Shown: piece by piece, positions 62,478 to 63,840 of the stretch
How positions within the stretch are numbered: the first letter of the stretch is position 1
Layout: the number at the start of each line of letters is the position of its first letter
Assembly: GCA_013823855.1 (NCBI GenBank)
Contig: PNMW01000035.1
Coordinates: 1-64,000 of the forward strand
Direction of reading: 5' to 3'
Length of the DNA: 64,000 nt
Source of the DNA: Lysobacteraceae bacterium
GTDB taxonomy: Bacteria > Pseudomonadota > Gammaproteobacteria > Nevskiales > Nevskiaceae
The notes under the pieces: generated by a model
Told to the model about the DNA's origin: nothing
Databases searched by the model: none
What the model saw: the letters and a program-made list of their open reading frames with translations, nothing else
Made by a program: the position numbers and the translations under genes

Positions 62478-63341
62478 ATGACGGTCGACAAGCCCAACGC
62501 TTCCACCATCGCCCAGGTCCTGACCGAGGCGCTGCCGTACATCCGCCGCTTCGCCGGCAAGACCTTCGTCGTCAAGTACGGCGGCAACGCGATGGGCGGC
62601 GACGACATGATCGACTCGTTCGCCCGCGACATCGTGCTGATGAAGGCGGTCGGCATGAACCCGGTGGTCGTCCACGGCGGCGGGCCGCAGATCGGCAAGC
62701 ACCTGGAAAAGCTCGGCAAGAAGAGCGAGTTCATCGACGGCATGCGGGTCACCGATGCCGAAACCATGGACGTCGTCGAGATGATGCTCGGCGGCCTGGT
62801 CAACAAGGCCGTGGTCAACGCGATCAACCAGCAGGGTGGCCGCGCCGTCGGCCTGACCGGCAAGGACGGCGGCCTGATCCGGGCCAGGAAGATGACCGTG
62901 CCGGGCGGCGACATCGGCCAGGTCGGCGAAGTCGAGGCGATCGATCCCCGGGTCGTCGATCACCTGGAAGCCGGCGGCTTCATTCCGGTGATCGCGCCGG
63001 TCGGCGTCGGCGCTCATGGCGAGGCGTACAACATCAATGCCGATCTGGTCGCCGGCAAGCTGGCCTCCGTGCTGAAGGCCGAAAAGCTGATGCTGCTGAC
63101 CAATGTCTCGGGCCTTCAGGACAAGCAGGGCAGGGTGCTGACCGGGCTGACCGTGGCGCAGGTCAATGCCCTGATCGCCGATGGCACGATCTACGGCGGC
63201 ATGCTGCCGAAGATCGCCTGCGCGCTCGACGCCGTGCAGAGCGGCGTCAAGTCCTCGGTGATCATCGATGGCCGGCTGGACCACGCGGTGCTGCTGGAGC
63301 TGTTCACCAACGAAGGGATCGGCACGCTGATTAAGGCGTGA
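62478..63341 (+). CDS. argB: Acetylglutamate kinase
   Basis: The 287-residue amino acid kinase has [41 protein letters not shown] and [15 protein letters not shown]. It phosphorylates N-acetylglutamate in arginine synthesis. ATG at 62478 gives the family start; an ATG at 62385 inside dut is unlikely. Its 3-prime end overlaps the convergent low-G+C gene by 11 bases. The other arginine gene in the window is argH. Confidence 0.96.
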
Positions 63342-63840
63342 GGGGGCCTATCGCCACGGACTTCTTTTTCAAAGCCTCCGTCAAGGCGTTGGTTACATGG
63401 TATTCGGCGTCTTTGATCGGACTTGACTTCCAGTCTTTGCCAGTTTGGGCACCCTTGAAATCCGAAGAGATTCGGGTGCTTTTGCCTTGCAGGAGCGGCA
63501 CATTCTCTTTACAGAATCTGCGCTCATCGGCGGGCTCACCTGAGATTTGCCTCCAGTACACCGCGTATCCCTTTGTTTCCGTCAGGAACTTGATGCAAGT
63601 TCCGACAATGAAGTCGGTATCTAGCGAAATGCCGCGGTCACTCGTAACGCCACTTGCCCTTTGCAACTCGCTCAGGGCACGCCCAAGGGTTGAAGGAATC
63701 CTCGCTGACTCTGCGTTGCGCGCCCCTGCCCGGCCTACATAGAGCGATACCTCTACACCGTTGGCAGTCCTTAAGTACCACTCGTAGACGCCAGCAAGAG
63801 GGTGGTCTTCGTCGAGAGATTCAAAAATGACTCTGCTCAT
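63331..63840 (-). CDS. Hypothetical protein with GIY-YIG-like N-terminal spacing, low G+C
   Basis: I do not recognise this 169-residue protein with certainty. Residues 17-19 (GVY) and 33-38 (LYVGRA), with a following Arg in TLGRALSEL, have the order and spacing of a GIY-YIG nuclease core (G-I-Y, Y-I-G, then Arg). A catalytic Glu could be Glu142 in [10 protein letters not shown], but this is not established. A hand count of 63361-63480 gives 59 G+C of 120, against 43 of 60 in argB at 62641-62700. This suggests recent acquisition. Its start overlaps the stop of the upstream BtuF-like gene in ATGA. Confidence 0.6.

Follow-up and report, generated by a model that had tools for sequence, protein, structure and literature searches.

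A lone foreign gene inserted between argB and btuF in a Lysobacteraceae bacterium, encoding a probable nuclease that appears distantly related to R.Eco29kI-type GIY-YIG enzymes

At the right-hand end of the window (the whole stretch of DNA analysed here, 64,000 nucleotides of contig PNMW01000035.1 from a Lysobacteraceae bacterium), the stretch from 63342 to about 63872 is an insertion of one foreign gene between argB and btuF. Its product, a member of an unnamed family that appears distantly related to the R.Eco29kI-type GIY-YIG nucleases, is in our judgement probably a metal-dependent DNA endonuclease. The features of the locus are as follows.

62478-63341, plus strand: argB, amino acid kinase family, left flank.
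63331-63840, minus strand: inserted ORF, 169 aa with an ATG start, unnamed family with GIY-YIG-like residues.
63331-63840, minus strand: GIY-YIG-like residues of the inserted protein, namely G17-V-Y19, Y34-V-G36, R54, E58, E106, P115 and Q118.
63342-63872: insert, about 530 bp long, replacing the short argB-btuF gap and the final codons of btuF; the right boundary is good to a few bases.
63837-63840, minus strand: ATGA overlap of the btuF stop and the inserted-gene start, read directly from the sequence.
63837-64000, minus strand: btuF-like gene, 3' part (Peripla_BP_2), right flank, running past the window on contig C4.
63840-63872, minus strand: insert-derived btuF 3' end, giving a new C-terminal tail ([11 protein letters not shown]) where congeners have short native ends.
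63850-63854, minus strand: GGAGG ribosome-binding site, 9 nt upstream of the inserted-gene ATG, read directly from the sequence.

The open reading frame is as the original prediction described it in coordinates, strand, ATGA overlap and 11-bp overlap with argB (63331-63341), and both the GGAGG site and the full-length relatives found elsewhere (see below) support its being a real gene. The same prediction had put the G+C content at about 50% after 70% in argB; the drop is indeed clear, but the figures are milder, with 53.9% for the gene (51.6-56.4% in 250-bp bins; 53, 48 and 61% at codon positions 1, 2 and 3) and about 65-68% in the argB bins. Measured over 528 bp (63342-63869), the insert has 54.2% G+C, whereas window stretches of that length average 67.6% (sd 3.4). 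No part of the window is lower: only 2 of 1270 sliding stretches are equally low, and both overlap the insert. Opposite the gene, an antisense open frame of 134 aa (window 63338-63742, plus strand) has no support as a gene.

Comparison with related genomes bears out the proposal of a tight insertion of foreign DNA and reveals empty sites of the kind that the original prediction had suggested seeking in the argB-btuF interval. argB is present in all 18 genus genomes searched, and in five congeners (G015, G016, G017, G018 and G019; ArgB 93-98% identical) the convergent argB and btuF genes are directly adjacent; in the other 12 genus genomes btuF was not found near argB within a flank of at most 1.5 kb. 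The stops of the two genes overlap by 4 bp in G017 and lie 13, 59 and 68 bp apart in G018, G016 and G015, a count made on four of the five empty sites because the G019 copy of argB contains a stop. This single TAG in the G019 match (L010) may reflect a sequencing error, the genome being a draft. In the gaps of G016 (L009) and G015 (L011), short REP-like palindromes, recognised by eye, fill the empty site, so that the gap seems tolerant of insertions.

The boundaries of the insert are read from both neighbours, into which it runs in frame. BtuF of the five congeners ends in GYRQL(R/K)AAI(D/E/A) followed by 2-4 residues, whereas BtuF here ends in [21 protein letters not shown]; its last 11 residues are therefore encoded by the insert, whose right boundary can be placed in this way to within a few bases. 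At the left end, the inserted ORF takes its final codons and its stop from argB, read antisense. A repeat search recognised neither a target-site duplication nor a terminal inverted repeat at the insert. One candidate, a 12-nt direct repeat around it (63276 and 63903; 11 of 12 positions matching), was rejected as a target duplication because the copies sit inside argB and btuF, and the repeats around the four family genes have nothing in common by eye among the matches listed. Non-homologous recombination would have joined the foreign gene in between convergent argB and btuF.

The gene had also been proposed as a possible island edge, with the island extending rightwards; this suggestion fails because core genes resume at once and G+C stays at 60-71% to about 67.5 kb on the contig. 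RadC, CoaBC-like and dUTPase genes and argB lie to the left; to the right follow the btuF-like gene, a metallo-beta-lactamase-fold gene, mraZ, an MraW/rsmH methylase, which is an rRNA enzyme, and a penicillin-binding protein, the nearest identified genes on both sides being core genes. The sharp G+C step could be explained by an island edge or by a chimeric assembly, and the source is a draft genome (87 contigs, 88% complete); yet the flanking genes are the core genes expected there, ordered as in the five congeners, and the inserted DNA, no longer than about 530 bp, runs in frame into both neighbours, so we regard either explanation as scarcely credible.

Within its own genome the inserted gene is present in one copy. 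Single-sequence searches returned no match at E <= 0.001 in any of the 57 other genomes of the family (17 of them from the genus), nor any other match at that threshold in 368 other genomes of the class and 397 of the phylum, sets that may overlap and whose counts are not summed. Scanning 84,980 species genomes for patterns from residues 73-122 identified three loci, in a Dehalococcoidales MAG (L137; Chloroflexota), a Syntrophaceae MAG (L138; Thermodesulfobacteriota) and a Phycisphaerales MAG (L139; Planctomycetota), each with a full-length ORF of 160-171 aa and an overall identity to the inserted protein of 41, 37 and 41%, respectively; a first scan of the same collection with other peptides had given no relatives. 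With relatives in three phyla, the label of orphan no longer holds in its strict sense. Pfam, NCBIfam, PHROGs and PADLOC all fail to recognise the family. Three relatives are a lower bound because the scan demands an exact 8-residue match, and within that limit the family looks rare and scattered across phyla. In the phyla of two of the relatives, profile searches (295 and 292 genomes) recovered known members only, and querying viral, phage and plasmid sequences with the three relatives gave none. The Phycisphaerales gene has 54% G+C versus 61-62% in its flanks, and the other two are close to theirs.

The neighbours of the relatives were identified in part only. PIN-like ORFs adjoin two of the three (L137:817-1407 and L139:5571-5924), the latter with a PF01850 match below the cut-off (E 0.003) and the former recognised by eye only, with no credible Pfam match. 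After the Dehalococcoidales relative lies a 536-aa ORF (L137:2225-3835) with no Pfam match and, by eye, a methyltransferase-like glycine motif.

Several weaker candidates were rejected as chance matches. A viral match (L002) belongs to a protein that by eye is zinc-finger-like and shares DFIVGTCI and little else, and those in a Klebsiella plasmid (H1) and two phage records (H2 and H3) are noise or, by eye, a sigma-factor-like protein. The phylum search matched 24 of 398 genomes at E <= 0.1, one of them the window's own and the others by chance; the inserted gene itself aside, these weak matches score 12.5-18.2 bits, many contain stops, and at none of the 19 weak loci aligned do all the motifs occur together. 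The most tempting (L041) is a 98-aa ORF lying under longer ORFs on the opposite strand.

Alignment of the inserted protein with its three relatives yields 36 columns invariant in all four sequences, among them G17-V-Y19, W21, Y34, G36, A38-G39, R54, S57-E58-L59, L73-DTDFIVG-T81, W96, E106, P115 and L117-Q118. The GIY-YIG-like core of the original prediction is thereby strengthened, in that G17, V18, Y19, Y34 and G36 are invariant; of the motif as first described, G-V-Y (17-19) and Y-V-G (34-36) are present, but the Arg directly after the latter (R37) is not conserved, position 37 being R, Q, E and R in the four members, and the invariant Arg is R54. Library searches recognise none of this. The inserted protein has no match up to E 10 in Pfam, PHROGs, PADLOC or the PDB sequences and two chance matches only in NCBIfam; the relatives have no credible match in Pfam, NCBIfam, PHROGs or PADLOC (weak unrelated matches at best, E 0.034 in Pfam and E 0.088 in PHROGs), so that PADLOC matches none of the four members. 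The family profile found no GIY-YIG protein in the PDB, RE_Eco29kI (PF09517) has no Pfam hit in the inserted protein or the relatives and no match in the gene's own genome, and the PF20815 profile matched nothing anywhere, controls included, and is uninformative. In open-access full text we found no paper recognisable as describing the family.

Similarity to the R.Eco29kI type emerges when profiles are compared directly. The reference profiles are small, with 8 Eco29kI-type sequences (from 8 of 299 phylum genomes), 5 of a plasmid subfamily and 12 of PF01541, and the hhalign values are single comparisons rather than database searches. The four-sequence family scores 35.6 against the 8 Eco29kI-type sequences over 107 columns (probability 67), a score that none of 400 column shuffles reaches (maximum 22.1, mean 13.2, sd 2.5), and the reversed family scores 11.9. 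In the alignment, GVY and YVG each fall on their Eco29kI counterparts, and E106, P115 and Q118 on Glu, Pro and Asn; the Eco29kI Arg, however, lies across from position 55 rather than R54, and the Eco29kI His across from L59. When the inserted protein is left out, the three relatives together still reach 32.4, and singly 25.3, 23.4 and 19.1. The inserted protein alone scores above all 2000 shuffles and all 400 six-frame controls in a single-sequence test, at only 7.4 bits, and 29.8 in hhalign versus at most 21.4 for 200 shuffles and 25.1 for the 400 controls, which are six-frame stretches of the window and mostly not real proteins. By comparison, the family scores 12.1 against the PF01541 set, inside the range of its 60 shuffles, and the inserted protein alone does not match that set.

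Viral sequences extend the comparison. In IMG/VR, 40 loci (L091-L130) encode R.Eco29kI-type GIY-YIG proteins, of which 28 passed a motif filter into the profile and 25, 12 and 22 entered alignments A4, A5 and A6; against a broader profile of 36 Eco29kI-type sequences, viral ones among them, the family reaches 31.9, with no more than 45 columns aligned. The metal-binding Glu falls on E88 in two of four alignments of the inserted protein with Eco29kI-type sequences (A4 and A5) and on E106 in the other two; A6 was trimmed to force E106 at that place, and its register is not independent evidence.

The R.Eco29kI family (type II restriction endonucleases, PF09517) is thus the best profile match found here, sharing with the inserted protein the order of GVY, YVG(K/R)A, an Arg helix, L-x2/3-DF and E-x8-P-x2-(N/Q). 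The likeness is nonetheless distant: identity is 18-25%, the inserted protein lacks a Pfam match and the WD-x2-HPGR block (a lone Trp, W137, is present), its GVY-YVG loop is much shorter, an extra stretch precedes the metal Glu, the R-L-x-E-H of RE_Eco29kI is replaced by R-(G/A)-(V/I/L)-S-E-L, Glu and Gln stand for His and Asn, and a cognate methylase is not recognised beside the gene. GIY-YIG proteins of Rhodococcus and related plasmids, some of them annotated 'GIY-YIG nuclease family protein', share the GVYxW(W/Y) start (5 sequences; hhalign 30.0, with 60 shuffles reaching at most 17.8, and confined to 36 N-terminal columns) but have no similarity to the family beyond the two half-motifs. 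The PF01541 proteins, of the UvrC and YhbQ/YazA type, likewise share the superfamily half-motifs and, unlike the R.Eco29kI type, lack profile similarity to the family in the 12-sequence set; the genome carries three separate PF01541 matches elsewhere.

Structure prediction yielded two weak models. AlphaFold2 gave a pLDDT of 36 for the inserted protein as a single sequence and of 55 for residues 1-122 forced onto 22 viral Eco29kI-like domains, both models being made without the three relatives; in both, low as the pLDDT is, the order of elements fits the GIY-YIG beta-beta-alpha-beta-alpha arrangement. A Foldseek search with the better model gave nothing at E <= 0.001, nor does any GIY-YIG protein occur among the matches listed; the fold is unconfirmed because both models are weak.

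On these grounds one may ask whether GVY, YVG and E-x8-P are coincidental in an unrelated, horizontally transferred small family that is not GIY-YIG at all. The empty library searches, the weak models and the lack of Foldseek support would fit such a family; that none of 400 column shuffles attains the Eco29kI profile score, that the motif order and two spacings fit, and that the half-motif residues are invariant speak against it, and we judge it improbable. The nuclease reading is accordingly supported at the family level by the sequence profile and not by structure.

The candidate active site follows that of R.Eco29kI, for which the available text of the published study (PMC1952068) lists Y49, Y76, R104, H108, E142 and N154, with cleavage abolished in Y49A, H108F and E142A and residual activity of about 2% in R104A and about 10% in N154L. 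Y19, Y34, R54, E58, E106 and Q118 occur here in the same order, and the steps from E106 to Q118 (12) and from R54 to E58 (4) equal those from E142 to N154 and from R104 to H108 in the same source. R54 and E58 are our assignments of the Arg and the His/Tyr place; the profile alignment is shifted by one position at these sites. In all four members, the His/Tyr place four residues after the helix Arg is Glu (His108 in R.Eco29kI, Tyr88 in R.Hpy188I) and the C-terminal Asn place is Gln. Glu at the former is not described in the consulted portions of the GIY-YIG literature compared (PMC1564403, PMC2630997 and PMC1952068). The absence of the Asn is compatible with superfamily membership because, in the available text of PMC1564403, the C-terminal motif can be missing or its Asn replaced by Asp. 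The GIY-YIG restriction endonucleases of the R.Hpy188I family, as far as the accessible text of PMC2630997 goes, resemble the present family in having Gln, proposed from a model, for the usual Asn and in being so divergent that standard searches gave one homologue; unlike R.Hpy188I, the inserted protein keeps the YIG Tyr (Lys there) and has Glu at the His/Tyr place, the two being set apart by description only.

These two departures could instead mark a pure nucleic-acid binder that descends from GIY-YIG enzymes but no longer cuts, a reading in line with the consequences of R.Eco29kI H108F (activity abolished) and N154L (about 10%) in the available text of PMC1952068. Against it, E58 and Q118 are invariant in all four members, as expected for a kept active site, and Gln at the Asn place has a modelled precedent in R.Hpy188I (PMC2630997, in the part available). 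We consider such a binder rather unlikely and, on conservation alone, put nuclease activity ahead.

As a nuclease, the product would be a compact one-domain protein in which E106 binds one divalent metal, Y19 and Y34 are the two core tyrosines and serve as acid/base aids, R54 holds the phosphate and E58 and Q118 occupy the usual His/Tyr and Asn places, the protein cutting or nicking DNA. It would be translated from its own ribosome site behind btuF; given this site and the ATGA overlap with the btuF stop, translation from the btuF mRNA is possible. A lone restriction enzyme of ordinary specificity is expected to need a methylase. No cognate DNA methyltransferase was recognised among the identified neighbours, a subset of the window's ORFs, and we therefore think of a rare-cutting selfish enzyme, a nuclease acting on unusual DNA or a dead binder. 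The most likely role is that of a stand-alone selfish or defence nuclease, two options that the data do not separate. More speculative, and doubtful at present, is a new stand-alone GIY-YIG family with an Arg-x3-Glu/Gln site that may be spreading across phyla as single-gene insertions between core genes, like free-standing homing endonucleases.

The locus is a clean example of a single foreign gene placed between core genes, and the empty site is seen in five congeners. The nuclease superfamily that includes restriction, homing and repair enzymes would gain a family that is unnamed and sparsely distributed. Four model libraries fail to recognise this family, and model-based annotation would therefore leave it unnamed; its kept departures at two active-site positions are open to mutagenesis.
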